From positions 1,107,400 to 1,171,399 of the forward strand of contig DS995299.1 of assembly GCA_000156155.1 (NCBI GenBank): 64,000 nt of DNA, written 5' to 3'. Below are positions 45,021-57,652 of the stretch, one piece after another. This DNA is from a beta proteobacterium KB13. Lineage in GTDB: Bacteria > Pseudomonadota > Gammaproteobacteria > Burkholderiales > Methylophilaceae. The notes under the pieces are model-generated. The model saw only the letters and a list, made by a program, of their open reading frames with translations. It was not told the DNA's origin and ran no database searches. The first letter of the stretch is position 1. Every line of letters begins with the position of its first letter. The translations under genes and the position numbers were made by a program.

Positions 45021-46289
45021 ATGGCATTAAGCGCTCATTTAGCCCTCAAAAATTCACTTAAATTATCACCCAATATTGAACAATCCGTTAATTTACTGAA
45101 ATCTAATGAAATTGAAATTGAGTTATTAATTAATGACTTTTTATCTAAGAACCCTTACTTGCAGCTAGATGATTCAGAAAAAATTAATCTTAATTATTCC
45201 GCTAATGTTATTGAAAATAATGAAGAAAATATTTCAGAAGATAATATTTATGGGCTCAGCCTTAAGGATTATTTATTAAATAATTTATTCGATTTAGGGC
45301 TTGATTATGAAGATGAATTATTAGCACGACTAATTATTGATTATATTGATGACAATGGTTATTTGAAAGAAGGCTATGATTTTTTCATTACAGAATTAGC
45401 TCTTGATTCTGACACAGCTAACAAAAAAATTAAGAATCTTATTTTAAAATTAAATACTATTTCATCTCCAGGTATTGGTGCCAGAAATTTACAAGAATGT
45501 TTGGATTTTCAACTTGATCAATTTATTCAAAATCAAATTGTATTAGACTCAAAAAAAATTATTGAAAATCACTTGGTAGACTTAGCAAATAAGAATTTCA
45601 AAAAAATTGCGACAAATCTTAACCTTCAAACTGATCACATTATTAAATGCAATGAGTTTATTGTTACCCTTAATCCAAAACCTGGGCTCGCTTATCTCTC
45701 ATCAGATACATCTCAATTTATCACCCCGGATATAATTGTAAAAAATAATGGAGATAAATTTAATGTTTCACTAAAAAATAATTATGACTCTCTTAAATTA
45801 TTTAATTTAAAAAAAGATGAGATTAATGATAAGGATGCATACAATCAAGCAAAGTGGTTCATTAAGAATTTAAATTATAGAAAAATTAACATTATTCGGG
45901 TTGTCAATGCTATCTTCTCTCATCATAAAGAATTTTTAAATGAAAATATTTTAAAGTCTCCTTTAAATATTAAAACCATTGCGAATCAACTGGAGATTCA
46001 TGAATCAACGGTTAGTAGAATTGTAAATAATAAATTCATTGAAACACCCCATGGTATTTTTGAACTTAAATATTTTTTCATAAATGAAGTAAATAATACT
46101 TCGAATAAAACCATATTAGATAAAATTAAAGCTATTATTAGAGATGAGAATAAAGTTAAACCATTGTCTGATTCTGAAATTCTCTTAACACTTGGCCAAG
46201 AAAATATTACAATCAGTAGGAGAACGGTTGCCAAATATCGTGAACAACTGGGGATACTATCTGCGTCAAAAAGAAAGAAAGGTGCTTAA
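45021..46289 (+). CDS. rpoN: RNA polymerase sigma-54 factor
   Basis: 422-residue sigma-54. Region I LALKNSLKLSPNIEQSVNLLK, core-binding region with SSPGIGARNLQECLDFQL, the HTH-like region NQLEIHESTVSRIVNNKFI, and the C-terminal RpoN box SRRTVAKYRE. It is shorter than the E. coli protein (477), mostly in the acidic linker. lptB-rpoN-hpf order is conserved. The one enhancer-protein-like gene in the window, ntrX, has no working ATPase, so any sigma-54 activator must lie elsewhere. Confidence 0.95.
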   Translation: MALSAHLALKNSLKLSPNIEQSVNLLKSNEIEIELLINDFLSKNPYLQLDDSEKINLNYSANVIENNEENISEDNIYGLSLKDYLLNNLFDLGLDYEDELLARLIIDYIDDNGYLKEGYDFFITELALDSDTANKKIKNLILKLNTISSPGIGARNLQECLDFQLDQFIQNQIVLDSKKIIENHLVDLANKNFKKIATNLNLQTDHIIKCNEFIVTLNPKPGLAYLSSDTSQFITPDIIVKNNGDKFNVSLKNNYDSLKLFNLKKDEINDKDAYNQAKWFIKNLNYRKINIIRVVNAIFSHHKEFLNENILKSPLNIKTIANQLEIHESTVSRIVNNKFIETPHGIFELKYFFINEVNNTSNKTILDKIKAIIRDENKVKPLSDSEILLTLGQENITISRRTVAKYREQLGILSASKRKKGA

Positions 46290-49820: not shown

Positions 49821-51842
49821 ATGAACAATCCTATTCTAGAACAAATAGACTTACCCATTTTTGACGAAATTAAAGCGGAACACATCTATCCAGCTATCAC
49901 AACAATCATCATTGAAAATAAAACTAAAATAAAAGAGATTGAAAACTATGAAATTTCTAAAATTGATTATAAGTTTGTAGACGAATTAAGCCTACTAGAT
50001 TACAAACTTAGTAACGCTTGGTCACAAATTGGTCATCTTAATTCCGTAATGAATTCTGACCTATACCGAGGTGAATATAATAAATGTCGTGAGCTTATCA
50101 CTGACTTTTACTCAAACTTATCGCAAAATACAAAAATCTTTAATTTGTACAAAGAATTAAAAAAATCTACCATTTTTGAATCATTAAGTGCAATGCAGCA
50201 AAAAATAATTAATGATGAAATTAAAGACTTTAAGCTTGGTGGAGTAGATCTAGATGAAGATAAAAAGACTACGTTCAAAGAATTACAATCAAAACTAGCA
50301 AAATTATCATCAAGATTTGAAGAGAATGTATTAGACGAAACCAATAACTACACTTTAAATATTACCGATGAAAGTTTACTAGATGGTATACCTAAAGATA
50401 TTCTTGAATCTGCAAAGGCCTTGGCAAAAGAAAATGATCAAAAAGGTCATACATTCACTCTTCATTTTCCGTGCTACATTCCTGTCCTTCAGTATGCAAA
50501 AAACAGAAACCTAAGAAAAGAAATGTATGAAGCCTATGCCAAAAAGGCTTCAGAGTTTTCTGATAAAAAATTTGATAATACAACCATTATCAAAGATATT
50601 CTTAGTCATCGTGCTAGCATTGCAAGATTATTAGGGTTTAATAATTATGCCGAGTTAAGTATTGACAGGAAAATGGCAAGCAACCCAGATGAAGTTTGTT
50701 CTTTTTTAAGAGACTTATCCAACAAAGCGAAACCATATGGATTAAAAGATTTTGAGGAACTTAAAGAAGCTGCAAAAAAAGATGGAGTTGAAGAACTTGA
50801 AGCCTGGGACGTAGCATTTTATTCTGAAATAATCAAACAAAATAAATACAATATCAATGACCAAGAGATAAAACAATTTTTTCCAGAGAATAAAGTTTTT
50901 GAAGGTTTGTTTAACGTAATTAAAAATTTATATGATATTGATATTATCGAGTCAAAAGCCTCCATTTGGCACACAGATGTTAAGTATTATGAGTTATTAC
51001 AAGACAATAAAATCATAGGATCTTTTTATCTTGATCTATATGCACGTAAAAATAAACGAGGTGGCGCATGGATGGATGAATGTATTTCAAAAACCAAATT
51101 TAATGAAAATATTGATTACCCAGTTGCTTATCTCACTTGTAATTTTTCATCCCCAATAGGAAATAATCCAGCATTATTTACACACGATGAAGTGATCACA
51201 CTATTTCATGAATGTGGTCATGGGCTTCACCATCTTTTAACGGAAATTTCTGAGTTTAATGTTTCTGGAATTAAGGGAGTTGAATGGGATGCCGTTGAAT
51301 TACCCAGCCAATTTATGGAGAATTTTTGTTGGGATTGGAATGTGATAAAGAATATGACTCAACATATTCATACCAAAGAATCCATGCCAAAAGAATTATT
51401 TAACAAACTTATAGCAAGTAAAAACTTTCAATCAGGAATGCAGTCCCTTCGTCAAATCGAATTTGCATTATTTGATATGTTAATTCACATGGAAAGTAAT
51501 CCAGATAATTTAGATGTTATAAGCACCCTTGAATCTGTTCGAGACGAAGTTGCAGTTGTTCGCCCTCCTAACTGGAATCGCTTTCCTCATAGTTTTAGCC
51601 ATATTTTTGCAGGTGGGTATGCTGCCGGATACTATAGTTACAAATGGGCAGAAGTATTATCAGCAGATGTCTTCGAAGAATTTGAAAATAATGGGGTATT
51701 AAGCAAAGATGTTGGTGCCAGATTTAGAAGGGAAATTTTAAGTGTTGGTGGTTCAAGGCCAGCAAAAGAGTCATTTATTAAATTTAAAGGTAGAGAACCT
51801 TCCGTAGACGCTTTATTAAGACATAACGGACTTACTGCATGA
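49821..51842 (+). CDS. prlC: Oligopeptidase A (M3 metallopeptidase)
   Basis: 673-residue zinc oligopeptidase. HExxH is in LFHECGHGLHHLL with the downstream ligand glutamate in GVEWDAVELPSQFMENF. It shows RKMASNPDEVCSFL and the final FSHIFAGGYAAGYYSYKW. Degrades short peptides, including cleaved signal peptides. ATG at 49821 preferred; a TTG at 49812 inside the end of ptsI is possible. It overlaps exodeoxyribonuclease III by 4 bases. Confidence 0.95.
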   Translation: MNNPILEQIDLPIFDEIKAEHIYPAITTIIIENKTKIKEIENYEISKIDYKFVDELSLLDYKLSNAWSQIGHLNSVMNSDLYRGEYNKCRELITDFYSNLSQNTKIFNLYKELKKSTIFESLSAMQQKIINDEIKDFKLGGVDLDEDKKTTFKELQSKLAKLSSRFEENVLDETNNYTLNITDESLLDGIPKDILESAKALAKENDQKGHTFTLHFPCYIPVLQYAKNRNLRKEMYEAYAKKASEFSDKKFDNTTIIKDILSHRASIARLLGFNNYAELSIDRKMASNPDEVCSFLRDLSNKAKPYGLKDFEELKEAAKKDGVEELEAWDVAFYSEIIKQNKYNINDQEIKQFFPENKVFEGLFNVIKNLYDIDIIESKASIWHTDVKYYELLQDNKIIGSFYLDLYARKNKRGGAWMDECISKTKFNENIDYPVAYLTCNFSSPIGNNPALFTHDEVITLFHECGHGLHHLLTEISEFNVSGIKGVEWDAVELPSQFMENFCWDWNVIKNMTQHIHTKESMPKELFNKLIASKNFQSGMQSLRQIEFALFDMLIHMESNPDNLDVISTLESVRDEVAVVRPPNWNRFPHSFSHIFAGGYAAGYYSYKWAEVLSADVFEEFENNGVLSKDVGARFRREILSVGGSRPAKESFIKFKGREPSVDALLRHNGLTA

Positions 51843-52609
51843 AAATCATTTCATGGAATGTCAATTCTCTAAAGATTAGACATAACCAACTTGTAGATAT
51901 AATTAATAAACATAATCCTGATGTCATATCTTTACAAGAAACAAAGTCTCAAGATGAAAACTTTCCAATTGAATCTTTTAATAACCTTGGTTATCAATCT
52001 ATCTTCACTGGACAAAAAACATTCAATGGTGTCGCCATAATAACCAAACTACCATTTGAAAATATTTTGTTAAATATTCCTAATTTTCAAGATGAGCAAA
52101 AAAGGTTTGTTTCTGCTGAGGTAAAGTTTGATGATCGTAAAATTATAATAATGAATGGATATTTCCCAAACGGTCAATCATTAGATAGCGATAAATTCAT
52201 TTATAAACAATCTTGGGTTAATGCTCTTTTAAAATTCATTAAAACAAAAAATTCAGATTCATTATTGATGGGCGATTTTAATATTGCCCCAGATGACATT
52301 GACTGTCATGATCCTGAAAAATGGGTTGGGACTGTTCTTACAAGCGATATTGAAAGAAATTTATTTAAAGAAATCATTGAATGTAATTTCACCGACACTC
52401 ATCGCTATCTAAACAAAAATGAACCAGGATTTACTTGGTGGGACTATAGGATGGCAGCCTTTAGAAGAAACCTCGGATTAAGAATTGACCACATACTTGC
52501 TTCACATGATTTAATCAATTTTTTAAAAGACTTCAGTGTCCTAAGTGATTATAGAAAATTAGAGAGGCCTTCAGACCACGCACCCATAATGCTTACTTTG
52601 AATTTTTAA
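51839..52609 (+). CDS. xthA: Exodeoxyribonuclease III / AP endonuclease
   Basis: 256-residue Mg-dependent EEP-fold nuclease for base-excision repair. SWNVNSLKIRH, LQETKSQDENFP, GDFNIAPDDIDCHDP, FTWWDYRMAAFRRNLGLRIDHIL and the C-terminal ERPSDHAPIMLTL carry the catalytic Asn, Glu, Asp and His. It resembles the XthA/ExoA group. Its last 17 bases overlap ntrX on the other strand. Confidence 0.95.
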   Translation: MKIISWNVNSLKIRHNQLVDIINKHNPDVISLQETKSQDENFPIESFNNLGYQSIFTGQKTFNGVAIITKLPFENILLNIPNFQDEQKRFVSAEVKFDDRKIIIMNGYFPNGQSLDSDKFIYKQSWVNALLKFIKTKNSDSLLMGDFNIAPDDIDCHDPEKWVGTVLTSDIERNLFKEIIECNFTDTHRYLNKNEPGFTWWDYRMAAFRRNLGLRIDHILASHDLINFLKDFSVLSDYRKLERPSDHAPIMLTLNF

Positions 52610-53840
52610 GTCCTAGTTGTTTTAGTTTTCTATAAAGATGAGTTCTTTCAACACCAGAAACAATTGATAAGTCTTTCATACTTACGTTGTTATCTAAATG
52701 ATGTTTCAAGTAAAGTTTATCAAATTCTTCTCTTGCACTTTTTAGCTCCATGCCATAAAGATGCTCAATAGGATTATTTTGCTGCTTTGTAGGCTCATTT
52801 AAATCAACTGGGCTTAATTTAATAGCATTAAGATAGTCTTCCTCATCAATGATTTCTCCATCAGCAAATTTTAAGCAATTTCTGATAATCTGATCAAGAT
52901 ATAAAATATCATAGCAATTTTTGTCCGATCTAATTTTGTTTAAAAAAGTAATATCAAACTCCTTGTATATTTTATTTGAAACAAAATTTAAATGATAAGT
53001 AAGAATATCTTTAGCCGATTTGATAAGCTTATCCTCATCTTGCGAGCCAAAGACTTTGAAGTCAGTAATTGAAAAATCTGAGAAATTAATTTTTTGTTTA
53101 TATTCTTCCGTTAAATCAACATCACTATTAATGGCTATTTTTACGTTATATTTTTTTGTCTTAGATTCAATGATCTTAAATATCGAGATGGCATTTTCAT
53201 TGTAATCAGAAAAATTTTCAAAAATTAATAAAGAATTTTTCTTTTCCTCTAAAAAAGATTCGCAGTTATCAATTTTTTTTATTGATGATTGATCAATCTT
53301 AAATACTTGATCTTTATTTGAAGATAAAAAGTAATAAAGGGCCTCTTTACAATTAGTTTTAAAAAATTGATGGTTTTCTTTATCGTCTAGCTTTTTAAAT
53401 AGATCAAACAATTCTTTATCTTTGTTGTTTTTTAAAAACTCGATGGATATGGTATTAAAATCAATTGACTCATTAATCGCATCATTCAAAACTTTCAAAA
53501 CTTTGTGTAGTGAAATTGGCTTTTCAATAAAATCAAAGGCGCCATTTTTGGTCGCGTCAATTGCTGTATCTATTGTTCCATGGCCTGACATCATAATAAT
53601 GGGTTGTTTTAATTTTTGACTGACCTTTAGCTCTTTAAGCAAGGTAATTCCATCGCAGTCAGGCATCCAGATATCTAACAAAATAATATCTATATTATTT
53701 TCTTGCTTTATTAATTTTCTTGCTTCATTTGCATCTGCCGCCAAATATGTTTCATATCCTTCATCAAGTAATATTTCTGATAAGGACTCTCGGATATCTT
53801 TTTCATCATCAATGATAAGAATTGTTGATTTATTTGCCAT
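52593..53840 (-). CDS. ntrX: NtrX-like response regulator with degenerate AAA+ domain
   Basis: 415 residues. The receiver domain (1-122) is intact: acidic pair D11-D12, phospho-Asp56 in LLDIWMP, Lys107 in IEKPI. The C-terminal Fis-type HTH (about 372-412) is intact, with LSIVSGVERTHLYRKLKQLGL. The middle, which in NtrX is a sigma-54-activating AAA+ ATPase, is eroded: the Walker A place reads FKTNCKEALYY (161-170), the stretch that should hold GAFTGA is missing (about 185-200), Walker B reads LLIFENF (204-210), and sensor-2 NVREL is NCYDI. It likely binds DNA under NtrY control but cannot drive sigma-54. Confidence 0.88.
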   Translation of the reverse strand: MANKSTILIIDDEKDIRESLSEILLDEGYETYLAADANEARKLIKQENNIDIILLDIWMPDCDGITLLKELKVSQKLKQPIIMMSGHGTIDTAIDATKNGAFDFIEKPISLHKVLKVLNDAINESIDFNTISIEFLKNNKDKELFDLFKKLDDKENHQFFKTNCKEALYYFLSSNKDQVFKIDQSSIKKIDNCESFLEEKKNSLLIFENFSDYNENAISIFKIIESKTKKYNVKIAINSDVDLTEEYKQKINFSDFSITDFKVFGSQDEDKLIKSAKDILTYHLNFVSNKIYKEFDITFLNKIRSDKNCYDILYLDQIIRNCLKFADGEIIDEEDYLNAIKLSPVDLNEPTKQQNNPIEHLYGMELKSAREEFDKLYLKHHLDNNVSMKDLSIVSGVERTHLYRKLKQLGLKNSK

Positions 53841-53842
53841 AA

Positions 53843-55933
53843 TTAATAGCTAAAGTGTATTTCTACATTTGCCCCTGATATTTTATTATTTTTAATAGTG
53901 ATAGATCCATCATGCTCATCAATAATTTTTTTCACAACAGCCAGACCTAATCCAGTACCGGTTTTTTTAGTTGTCACATAAGGCTCGAAAATATTTATGT
54001 CATCATTCACGCCAGTACCATTATCAATGAAATTAAGAATCAAAGCATTTCTTGTTTTTCTGAGCCTGATCTCAATTTCACAGGAATTATCTTCTTTTTT
54101 TGCTTCGTATGCGTTGTTGATAAGGTTTACAAAAACTTGTCTAATTTTTATTTCATCACAAGTAAAGTTAATTTTTTTTGACCTGGATGATATCTTTATT
54201 TTGAGATCTTCTTTTTGAAACAAATTCACTAGCTCATTTAATAAATCAACCAAATTTATTTCTGATTTTGTTAATTCAGGTGATCTAGAATACTCAGTAA
54301 ACTCATTTACCATTTTTTTGATCGCATCAACCTGATTAACGATGGTTTTCGTAATGTCGCTCAGGATAGTTTGATCATTTTTTTCTAATTGTTTTGAGAA
54401 TTTATGATCGATTCTTTCCGCAGATAACTGAATCGGAGTTAATGGATTTTTTATTTCGTGTGCGAGTCGTCTCGCTACTTCAGACCAAGCTTCATTTCTT
54501 TGCGCAGCTGTAATTTCAGAGATATCATCAATTAATATAATTTTATTTTTATTTTTTCCAGTGCCCTGTTCTGTTAACTGAATCGATAAAATTCTTCTTT
54601 TAAATTTCAACGTAAGTGCTTTTTCTTTATAGCTATCTTTGCTTTTATTTATCAATGTTACTATTTCTTCAAATTGAGCCCCATATTCTAAAATTTGGTT
54701 AAATCTTTGACCGATTAGTAACTCTAGATTAAATCCTAAAAGTTTTGAGGCTAATTTATTTGTAAGCCTTATATTACTTTTTGGATCTATAACAATGATC
54801 CCCGATGACATATTGTTAATAATGCTTTCTAAGAAGTTTCTTGACGACTCAATTCTTTGCCTATTAAGTTCAAGCGTCTTATTGGCACTTTCAAGTTTAG
54901 TTGTCATTGTATTAAATGACCTCACTAACATTCCCAGCTCATCTTTTCCTTGATCTGGTATTTTTTTCTTGAAATTACCTTTTGCAATACTCTGTGTTGC
55001 TTCAGACAAGATTGATAAAGGCATCGTAAATCTTCTACTGAAATAAAGAGCTAATGATATTGAAAGAAGGATTGCCAAGAAAAGGATAATACTTAATGTT
55101 ATCTGATAAATTACCTTTAATGAGTTCCTGCTAAAAGTTAAGGCTTGATAATCCTCAAAGACAGACTCAACAGATAACGCAGCCTCTGAAATACTTTCAG
55201 GAATTTTTTGTGTAATGATTAAATAAAATTTCTTCTGTATTTTGTCATCAATTAAAATATAAGGCTGGAATGTTTTTAAAAAAATAATATTTTCTTGAGT
55301 AATATCTATCTTTCCATGAAAGCCAGTATTTGCAAGAATCAAATCTTGTTCATCAGGTAACACTGAATCAATTTCGATATTATCTTTTGATGAAATAGCC
55401 ATAATTCGATTTTCTTCATCGATGATCATTGCATCATAAATATCAAATTTTTCAGTTAGATCCGAAAGAACTGGGTTAAATTCTTTAATTTTTGAATTTG
55501 ATAATGAATAACTGATACTTCTTGACTTCAGCTCAACATCTTTTCTTAATATGTCTAGCGTCTTTTGACCAATATTTAATCCACTTTCTAACGCCGACTC
55601 AACTCTAACATTAAACCATGACTCTATTGATTTAGTTAAAAAGTTCACAGAAACAAAATACAGAACCATCAGTGGAACTATAATCATGATGCTGTAGGAA
55701 ATGACCAACCTTAATGTCAATCTGCTGCCGGTGACTTCTTTTTTAACCTCCTTAAATAATCGATAAACTTGTAATGCAATAAATATAAATAGCAGAACCA
55801 CAAATGCTAAATTTATTTTTAAAAGTAACTGAAAAGTTTCGCTGCTGATAAAATCAGAATTTGAAAGCGATCTTATTAAAATCACTAATAGCGATAAACT
55901 TATTACTAATGCTGATGTAAGCAGGTATCTCAT
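53843..55933 (-). CDS. ntrY: Sensor histidine kinase NtrY
   Basis: 696-residue membrane kinase. Two helices at the N-terminus, a third near residue 80-105, a periplasmic sensor part, and a fourth near 275-300 lead into a HAMP domain (RRFTMPLSILSEATQSIAKG), a PAS domain (IINNMSSGIIVIDPKSN), the phospho-accepting HisKA ARRLAHEIKNPLTP and HATPase boxes FIDNGTGVND and KKTGTGLGLAVVKKI. All kinase residues look intact although its partner NtrX is altered. Two bases separate it from ntrX. Confidence 0.94.
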   Translation of the reverse strand: MRYLLTSALVISLSLLVILIRSLSNSDFISSETFQLLLKINLAFVVLLFIFIALQVYRLFKEVKKEVTGSRLTLRLVISYSIMIIVPLMVLYFVSVNFLTKSIESWFNVRVESALESGLNIGQKTLDILRKDVELKSRSISYSLSNSKIKEFNPVLSDLTEKFDIYDAMIIDEENRIMAISSKDNIEIDSVLPDEQDLILANTGFHGKIDITQENIIFLKTFQPYILIDDKIQKKFYLIITQKIPESISEAALSVESVFEDYQALTFSRNSLKVIYQITLSIILFLAILLSISLALYFSRRFTMPLSILSEATQSIAKGNFKKKIPDQGKDELGMLVRSFNTMTTKLESANKTLELNRQRIESSRNFLESIINNMSSGIIVIDPKSNIRLTNKLASKLLGFNLELLIGQRFNQILEYGAQFEEIVTLINKSKDSYKEKALTLKFKRRILSIQLTEQGTGKNKNKIILIDDISEITAAQRNEAWSEVARRLAHEIKNPLTPIQLSAERIDHKFSKQLEKNDQTILSDITKTIVNQVDAIKKMVNEFTEYSRSPELTKSEINLVDLLNELVNLFQKEDLKIKISSRSKKINFTCDEIKIRQVFVNLINNAYEAKKEDNSCEIEIRLRKTRNALILNFIDNGTGVNDDINIFEPYVTTKKTGTGLGLAVVKKIIDEHDGSITIKNNKISGANVEIHFSY

Positions 55934-56451
55934 AAATTATGTTTTAAACTTTTTATTATCATCCATTTCGGTTTTTTTAAACTTAATTGTAAGCTTTTTG
56001 GAAGATTTTTTTGATCAATCTCCCAGGTTACTGTGAGTTCTTTATTTTTCGAATCATTGATATTTTCTAAAGTTAAGTATCGAGGCTTGTTGATATAACT
56101 TACTAGCTCATTGAGTTCTGCAAATGAAAATTTTTCATTCTCTTCAAAAAAGTAGAATTTTTTTATCAAAGGATGGTATTCAATTCGAAAATTTTTAATT
56201 CTTTTGAATACAACATTATCAAAGAAATATTTATTTTCTCTTTTTACAGTGATTTTTTCTAAAATATGAATAGATATACCTTTATCTATAATTTTTTTTA
56301 AATCATTATCTAACTCGTAATCTAAAACAAATTTAATTTTGGTCGAATCTAAATTTTGTTCATCAATAACAATGACTGCATGAGATATATTTAAACAAAA
56401 TATCCAAGCCAGACTAATTTTTACTAAAGATTTTAAAAAATAAACCATCAT
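55930..56451 (-). CDS. DUF4390 secreted protein
   Basis: 173 residues with a signal peptide (about 1-23, ending ISHA) and a beta-rich body: LDYELDNDLKKIIDKGISIHI, RIEYHPLIKKFYFF and YINKPRYLTLEN fit DUF4390. The family sits between rsmB and ntrY in betaproteobacteria, and its function is unknown. ATG at 56451 is preferred over a GTG/ATG further up (56496) because it leaves a normal signal peptide. It overlaps the rsmB end and ntrY start. Confidence 0.8.
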   Translation of the reverse strand: MMVYFLKSLVKISLAWIFCLNISHAVIVIDEQNLDSTKIKFVLDYELDNDLKKIIDKGISIHILEKITVKRENKYFFDNVVFKRIKNFRIEYHPLIKKFYFFEENEKFSFAELNELVSYINKPRYLTLENINDSKNKELTVTWEIDQKNLPKSLQLSLKKPKWMIIKSLKHNL

Positions 56452-57652
56452 GAAATTGATTGGGAATGAGTTGTGTATTTTGATATTTAAAACCATTTGG
56501 GATTATGAGATCTTGACTTGCAGCATCCTTATTTTTTGATAGAAATTTCATTACAACATTTTCATTCTCATGTTTGAAAATTGAACAAGTTACATAAAGT
56601 AATTTTCCACCACTTTTTAAAATTTTCCACCCCTCTTCAAGTAACTGAAGTTGTTGATTGCTAAATTTTTCAATATCTTGTTGTTTACGCATTAATTTTA
56701 TATCAATATTTCTTCTGACTACCCCCGACCCTGAGCATGGAGCATCAATCAATATCCGATCATATCGTTTATTGATGTCTATTTTCTCGATAATATTAGA
56801 TTTTAATTGCAATCTTTTCATATTGCTTCGGATAAGATTAATTCTTTCCTTTGATATATCATAGCAGTCTAGGTCAACATCGAATCTCTCTAGAATATGT
56901 GTGGCTTTGCCACCAGGAGCAGAGCATAAATCTAGAATATTCATACCGTTTTGTATATCAAGAAAATCACATGCTAATTGTGCAGCTGGATCTTGGACGT
57001 AAAAATGACCTCTCTCATATCCAGGCAACATAGTTATATCTTTTACATTGCTTATTTGAATGTATTTGTCTTCCAGAGTTAATTCATAATCAATATTCGC
57101 TTGTTCTAAAAGATCTATATAGTCATTTAGAGAGATTTGTCTTTGATTAATCCTAATAACTGTTTTTGCTCTAGTATTTCCAATTGCTAAGATAGCCTCA
57201 TAGTCATTAGGGTACTCTTTCATAAGATCGCTAACCCACCATTGTGGATATGAATACCTTATATACATTTCTTCTGGTGTAACAAGTTTATCTTTTTCTC
57301 TTAAATAATTTCTAAGGACAGCATTTACCAAATTATAAAAATTATTATTTATTTTTTTTGCCGCTTTGACAGCTTCATTAACAACTGTAAACTCAGCTTT
57401 TGACTGATGGTTAATTTGATAGATTGTATTCATCAGCAGGTACTTAATTAAATGATCGTTGATGTCTTTTTTCACAAATTTTTTCAAAATATAGTCGTTA
57501 AGATAGAAATCTCTAATACCGCCATAAACAATATCTTTGATAAAATTTTTGTTATTTTCTTCTTTTAAAAAACGATTAAATAAAGTGTCAATTTTTCTAC
57601 CACTGATTAACTCAGATAATATTTTTGCTGCTTGGACTAAATCCTTATACAT
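56414..57652 (-). CDS. rsmB: 16S rRNA m5C967 methyltransferase RsmB
   Basis: 412-residue enzyme. NusB-like RNA-binding N-terminus (QAAKILSELISG..., YGGIRDFYLNDYILKKF, about residues 1-130), then the class I methyltransferase: ILDLCSAPGGKATHILE, the cysteines in DAPCSGSGVVRRN and VTCSIFKHENE. It methylates C967 in 16S rRNA in E. coli. The fmt-rsmB link is classic. Overlaps fmt by 8 bases and DUF4390 by about 38. Confidence 0.94.
   Translation of the reverse strand: MYKDLVQAAKILSELISGRKIDTLFNRFLKEENNKNFIKDIVYGGIRDFYLNDYILKKFVKKDINDHLIKYLLMNTIYQINHQSKAEFTVVNEAVKAAKKINNNFYNLVNAVLRNYLREKDKLVTPEEMYIRYSYPQWWVSDLMKEYPNDYEAILAIGNTRAKTVIRINQRQISLNDYIDLLEQANIDYELTLEDKYIQISNVKDITMLPGYERGHFYVQDPAAQLACDFLDIQNGMNILDLCSAPGGKATHILERFDVDLDCYDISKERINLIRSNMKRLQLKSNIIEKIDINKRYDRILIDAPCSGSGVVRRNIDIKLMRKQQDIEKFSNQQLQLLEEGWKILKSGGKLLYVTCSIFKHENENVVMKFLSKNKDAASQDLIIPNGFKYQNTQLIPNQFHDGLFFKIFSKN

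Follow-up and report, generated by a model that had tools for sequence, protein, structure and literature searches.

What becomes of a response regulator once the motor at its centre has lost its catalytic residues is the question raised by the ntrX gene of beta proteobacterium KB13. The gene lies at positions 52593–53840 on the minus strand of the window, that is, the whole 64,000-nucleotide stretch analysed here, which is part of a 1.33-Mb single-contig genome of a lineage that we take to be OM43 (one matching record, L076, carries that name). The open reading frame starts with ATG and encodes a 415-residue response regulator that comprises three regions, all on the minus strand; a receiver domain (residues 1–124; 53469–53840), a centre of AAA+ descent without P-loop, GAFTGA or Walker B, termed here the dead AAA+ centre (residues 126–345; 52806–53465), and a C-terminal region with a Fis-type helix-turn-helix (HTH) block (residues 356–415; 52596–52775). 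The closest named NtrX records are those of Methylophilaceae LSUCC0717 (99% identity), LSUCC0665 (85%) and LSUCC0401 (59%), and the HTCC2181 protein is 38% identical.

Both ends of the protein are preserved, as the preliminary description had proposed. Pfam Response_reg matches the receiver with 99 bits, Asp56 sits within LLDIWMP, and D11, D12, D56, S85 and K107 are identical across 38 aligned sequences. At the other end, ERTHLYRKLKQLG begins at residue 398; E398–K407 and L409 are invariant and Q408 is nearly invariant in the 38 sequences. The Pfam matches of the window protein include no HTH model, even at E ≤ 10, so that the HTH assignment depends on the alignment and on HTH_8, which a short NtrX ortholog with the same C-terminal block matches at 29.6 bits (cut-off 22). 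The NtrX of HTCC2181 scores 16.9 bits with HTH_8, under that cut-off.

The positions equivalent to the catalytic motifs read HQFFKTNCKEALYYF from residue 157, LLIFENF from 204 and NCYDI from 308. Alignment to the NtrC of the same genome shows that NtrX lacks the Walker A glycines and the GAFTGA stretch, that Walker B DE is replaced by EN and that the sensor-2 Arg is replaced by Leu. The sequence motifs of sigma-54 enhancer-binding activators (bEBPs), namely Walker A GxxGxGK, the GAFTGA loop, the DE pair of Walker B and the Arg of sensor-2, are all missing, and three marks of the NtrYX family (a receiver with its Asp, a Fis-type HTH by alignment and the operon setting) are present. Sigma54_activ_2 (PF14532) scores 14 bits against the whole protein and 15.8 bits against the isolated centre, both below the cut-off of 25, and matches 30 of the 38 NtrX centres at E ≤ 1 (best 1.6e-52). 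The best-scoring NCBIfam model is the NtrX equivalog NF051870, with 139.7 bits against a cut-off of 600. Descent from an AAA+ protein is supported in that a profile of the 38 NtrX relatives matches Brucella abortus NtrX (PDB accession number 5m7n) nearly end to end with an E value of 4.6e-67.

The genes rsmB, a DUF4390 gene, ntrY and ntrX follow one another in this order, ntrX being the last. The rsmB gene, a conserved upstream neighbour (56414–57652, minus strand), matches Methyltr_RsmB-F with 155.8 bits (cut-off 27) and carries a NusB domain, and the DUF4390 gene (55930–56496, minus strand; PF14334, 60.7 bits, cut-off 27) is PlrP-like (PMC13001219). It shares 4 bases with ntrY (53843–55933, minus strand), whose end lies two bases ahead of the ntrX start. 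The NtrY sensor kinase contains HAMP, PAS, HisKA and HATPase_c domains above the Pfam cut-offs and retains HEIKNPLTPI, NLINNAYEA, DNGTG and TGTGLGL, consistent with the earlier statement that every kinase motif is kept. Downstream, an endonuclease/exonuclease-family gene (51839–52609, plus strand) overlaps ntrX tail to tail by 17 bases (52593–52609). The operon order groups the window NtrX with the NtrYX/PlrSR systems, and we take the protein for the ortholog, in the OM43 lineage, of the NtrX/PlrR regulator of beta- and gammaproteobacteria. NtrX has been linked to envelope genes and GCA-N9-TGC proposed as its site in the available text of PMC7240162. This pattern occurs four times in the 64-kb window against 10.2 expected and nowhere within the ntrX operon, and was dropped as a guide to the operator; no DNA target or regulon of NtrX was found.

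NtrX proteins were collected from the family with the window protein as query (E ≤ 1e-10; matches in 60 of 60 genomes), from the order with L035 (E ≤ 1e-30; 116 of 120) and from the class with L152 (E ≤ 1e-40; 91 of 140). The order is named Burkholderiales, and the rest of the class is called gammaproteobacterial, following what we understand to be GTDB usage. The class set consists of the best 30 of the 91 matching genomes, 29 of which were analysed (L239 was left out), and therefore favours close relatives; the full-length order proteins, 62 in number, represent part of the order genomes with a match; and the 100 other relatives combine family genomes with records, some titled just Betaproteobacteria or Pseudomonadota. 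L064 and L223 contribute no protein. The window's subclade, which is part of the GTDB genus, comprises seven distinct proteins, namely that of the window and six relatives with 59–99% identity.

GAFTGA is present at the aligned columns in none of the 198 distinct full-length NtrX proteins, and the string is absent from all 246 NtrX proteins searched. The Walker A Lys, scored by alignment columns plus a loose pattern, is kept by 27 of the 29 proteins from the class outside the order, by a single one of the 62 order proteins from outside the family, and by none of the 100 other relatives. The sole order protein with this Lys, L197, has the Walker A-like sequence GEPGVGKS. Walker A Lys together with Walker B DE is found in 9 of the 29 class proteins and in 0 of the remaining 169, which suggests that erosion of Walker B was already under way in the class set. 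These counts suggest that the sigma-54 contact loop was gone before the order arose and that ATP binding was lost close to its base, as far as this sample shows. A recent and local decay, as the preliminary description implied, is thus not what the relatives display. The stepwise loss for which it had proposed a survey was seen instead, with the contact loop lost before ATP binding and with erasure or excision of the centre thereafter.

All seven subclade proteins lack the P-loop, GAFTGA, Walker B and the sensor-2 consensus, so that the motif loss in the window protein is not a matter of chance. The K that falls in the Walker A column in five of the seven is an alignment accident in FKTNCKEALYY, where the P-loop glycine is absent. 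A centre profile was derived from the class set, whose own high scores (median 379.5 bits) follow from that derivation; the medians are 94.6 bits for the order and 89.1 bits for the other relatives, and the seven subclade proteins score 0.6–3.7 bits. Ten of the other relatives, HTCC2181 and UBA4017 among them, lie at the bottom with −0.2 to 14.3 bits, and the next one up scores 59.5; the centre of the freshwater LD28 NtrX scores 80.5 bits. The drop in score indicates that an erased sequence signature characterises the OM43-type lineages.

The alternative outcome, excision, is seen elsewhere in the order. The match is confined to the receiver in 29 of the 116 order genomes with NtrX and extends beyond it in the other 87. 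Sampling of 24 of these 29 genomes yielded 24 proteins of 208–271 residues, all with the centre absent and the same C-terminal block, and Pfam found Response_reg and HTH_8 and nothing else in the one that was scanned. The ntrY gene lies upstream of short ntrX in 23 of the 24 (the exception is L181), and the upstream open reading frames are DUF4390 at 7 of 7 loci scanned. Trees of the receiver and HTH contain five short-form clades, or five changes, of which the well-supported branches force two; a single short-form clade was not rejected by the AU test (p 0.545; 66 of 177 rows used). EsaR of Burkholderia cenocepacia may be another short NtrX ortholog.

Structure prediction, which had been suggested as a search for a hidden intact P-loop, was performed with AlphaFold from 38 aligned relatives (database records and the window protein). 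The whole NtrX model has a pLDDT of 81.3 and a pTM of 0.58; the centre modelled alone reaches 87.1 and 0.80. In the whole model, residues 163–164 alone separate the strand 157–162 from the helix 165–175 at the place of the P-loop, so that the strand leads directly into the helix and a P-loop has no room. Residues ~200–225 and 275–325 contain the Walker-B strand together with the helical lid. Foldseek listed 50 PDB matches for the centre model, all of them AAA+ proteins, with TM scores of 0.44–0.60 by query length; to judge by their entry titles, they comprise clamp loaders, RuvB, sigma-54 activators, ORC, p97 and others of this kind. The centre is thus predicted to retain the AAA+ fold. Brucella abortus NtrX (PDB accession numbers 5m7n, 5m7o and 5m7p) ranks first both by full-length sequence and in the Foldseek comparison with the whole model, where the TM score is only about 0.3–0.4 and the rmsd above 20 because the domain arrangement differs. 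According to their titles, the Brucella entries include complexes with ATP and ADP, whereas the window NtrX has no P-loop.

Selection on the three regions was estimated by the Nei-Gojobori method for L009 against L011, L012 and L013, the three pairs divergent enough for use, with dS near saturation for L013. The respective dN/dS values are 0.17, 0.12 and 0.21 for the centre, 0.07, 0.05 and 0.07 for the receiver, and 0.02, 0.11 and 0.25 for the HTH region. For the most distant pair, the HTH region thus changes at least as fast as the centre (0.25 vs 0.21); the 99% identical pair with L010 (centre dN/dS 0.27) is too close for use. The centre is under purifying selection. It evolves faster than the receiver, and part of it could therefore lack function. 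Among non-independent pairs with a receiver identity of 0.65–0.72, the centre has a median identity of 0.54 for the class set, 0.43 for non-OM43 relatives, 0.32 for the order and 0.29 for all OM43 taken together. For pairs with a receiver identity of 0.72–0.80, the medians are 0.50 (the window's subclade), 0.45 (non-OM43 relatives) and 0.35 (other OM43), the 10 OM43 loci compared having been chosen by their low centre-profile scores. These medians suggest that the centre drifts no faster in the window's subclade but faster in other OM43 lines. To judge from these comparisons, constraint on the centre is relaxed after the loss of the ATPase and not abolished. Of the earlier portrayal of the centre as decayed, the loss of Walker A, GAFTGA, Walker B and sensor-2 stands, as seen by alignment to the genome's own NtrC and to relatives; the word itself is too strong for a domain with a predicted AAA+ fold under purifying selection.

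The window also carries an apparently intact rpoN gene for sigma-54 (45021–46289, plus strand), which matches TIGR02395 with 317.5 bits (cut-off 277.35) and has AID, CBD and DBD above the Pfam cut-offs. The NtrC of this genome, whose gene adjoins that of a PAS-HisKA-HATPase kinase, has an intact GAFTGA and is the single clear sigma-54 activator among the strongest PF00158 matches. The next seven matches correspond to six distinct proteins, namely two Clp-type, a MoxR-, a ClpX- and an MgsA/RarA-type AAA+ protein and one ABC transporter, two of the seven places falling in or beside one Clp-type frame. The Sigma54_DBD score of RpoN is 158–165 bits in the window's subclade, 183–213 bits in other near-full matches of the genus and mostly 214–230 bits in the family; RpoN of the subclade may itself be under relaxed constraint.

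Sigma54_DBD matches were found in 118 of the 121 family genomes that are at least 90% complete and in 24 of the 31 genus genomes, and no match was found in the genomes of HTCC2181 and UBA4017. The ABC-transporter gene found ahead of rpoN in the window lies only 43 bases from hpf in HTCC2181, with rpoN absent between the two, and the corresponding open reading frames of UBA4017 (assembly 85% complete) are equally close. Nor was rapZ seen in these two genomes in the interval from hpf to the PTS EIIA gene. Both retain ntrY and ntrX as intact open reading frames, and a domain scan showed that HTCC2181 also keeps the DUF4390 gene. Judged from gene content, ntrX is thus retained in two genomes, representing one lineage, in which sigma-54 appears not to exist, which makes independence of NtrX from sigma-54 likely. 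NtrC was read in 8 of the 24 genus genomes with a match. GAFTGA and the sensor-2 Arg are lost and Walker A is kept in HTCC2181 and UBA4017 (the latter copy is cut by a contig end), and HTCC2181 NtrC has lost the Walker B Asp too; the other six keep GAFTGA (GSFTGA in L270). One of those six genomes, G322 (91% complete), has neither an rpoN nor an ntrX match, and an assembly gap is suspected because ntrX is missing too. The further genomes with no Sigma54_DBD match, G320, G328, G333, G337 and G371, are incomplete or 90% complete.

The window NtrX is, with high probability, a phosphorylation-controlled, sigma-54-independent DNA-binding regulator that acts with sigma-70 through its Fis-type HTH and carries a dead AAA+ scaffold. 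NtrY would set the phosphorylation state of Asp56, and the periplasmic PlrP-like DUF4390 protein probably modulates NtrY. The phosphorylated receiver would alter the NtrX dimer or its DNA affinity, and the HTH would bind target promoters to activate or repress with sigma-70 RNA polymerase. The centre would neither hydrolyse ATP nor contact sigma-54 and may persist as a folded scaffold that joins receiver and HTH, either as a spacer or for dimerisation. Continued activation of sigma-54 promoters by NtrX, with the help of unusual motifs or as an inactive subunit of an NtrC ring, finds some footing in the presence of rpoN and a GAFTGA-bearing NtrC in the same genome, and is very improbable given the absence of the P-loop and L1 loop, the absence of GAFTGA throughout the full-length NtrX set and the retention of ntrX in two genomes that gave no rpoN match.

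A gene decaying into a pseudogene might be expected from the G+C content of the centre (24.5%, against 32.5% for the receiver and 34.5% for the window) and from its sequence, which for a given receiver identity diverges more than that of the class-set centres; yet dN/dS is far under 1 in all three domains, the 26 ntrX matches listed for the 31 genus genomes, some of them partial, contain no internal stop codons, and the receiver residues and HTH block are invariant, so that we give this reading hardly any credence. A centre that gained a new positive role, such as ligand sensing or partner binding, instead of serving as a passive scaffold is an unlikely but more serious alternative. Residues ~200–225 and 275–325 are 0.72–0.80 identical between L009 and L013, against 0.16–0.48 in the adjoining centre blocks, and the fold of the centre is predicted with confidence. 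These conserved stretches, however, include the Walker-B strand and helical lid that a folded core requires, and orthologs without the entire domain are kept. The dead-scaffold regulator is therefore the preferred reading.

In the available text on Bordetella PlrR and betaproteobacterial NtrX (PMC13001219, Wolber et al. 2026), rsmB and plrP are located before ntrYX, and genetic evidence is given that PlrP restrains the phosphatase activity of the kinase. The window shares with the Bordetella system the receiver and C-terminal DNA-binding domain, the adjacent NtrY-type kinase, rsmB and a DUF4390 gene upstream, and the 4-base overlap of the DUF4390 and kinase genes. Betaproteobacterial NtrX is described there, citing Bonato 2016, as lacking the AAA+ domain, whereas the window NtrX retains an AAA+-derived centre of ~220 residues that is predicted to be folded. 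The parallel drawn earlier with alphaproteobacterial NtrC and NtrX proteins lacking GAFTGA also holds; PMC10274813 discusses the NtrC proteins of Caulobacter and Rhodobacter capsulatus, which are NtrC-family regulators devoid of the sigma-54 contact loop and are reported to act at sigma-70 promoters. The paper also implies a Caulobacter NtrX with no GAFTGA. That case concerns NtrC, and the present one NtrX.

The window protein is thus mostly explained as an extreme yet recognisable member of a family in which the motor was lost long ago. We put forward as new the series, the fold kept by the centre, and the case of HTCC2181 and UBA4017, in which NtrC has lost GAFTGA as well; the titles and abstract openings listed describe neither a stepwise NtrX series nor the HTCC2181 case, which is slight evidence of novelty. 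A broader scheme is offered tentatively, as one that we doubt more than we believe. The motor would have been retired stepwise, the contact loop before ATP binding, and then either excised or, in marine OM43, rebuilt under purifying selection as a nucleotide-free AAA+ scaffold with a new mechanical or partner-binding role, and one OM43 branch would be retiring NtrC likewise after deletion of rpoN.

One odd protein becomes part of a readable series that leads from sigma-54 activator architecture to a plain DNA-binding regulator, and such ntrX genes should not be annotated as sigma-54 activators. The published view of a betaproteobacterial NtrX without an AAA+ domain is qualified, in that the domain looks dead, not missing, in the 62 distinct full-length order proteins examined. 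OM43 strains that lack rpoN provide a natural test of the roles of NtrX and NtrC in the absence of sigma-54.
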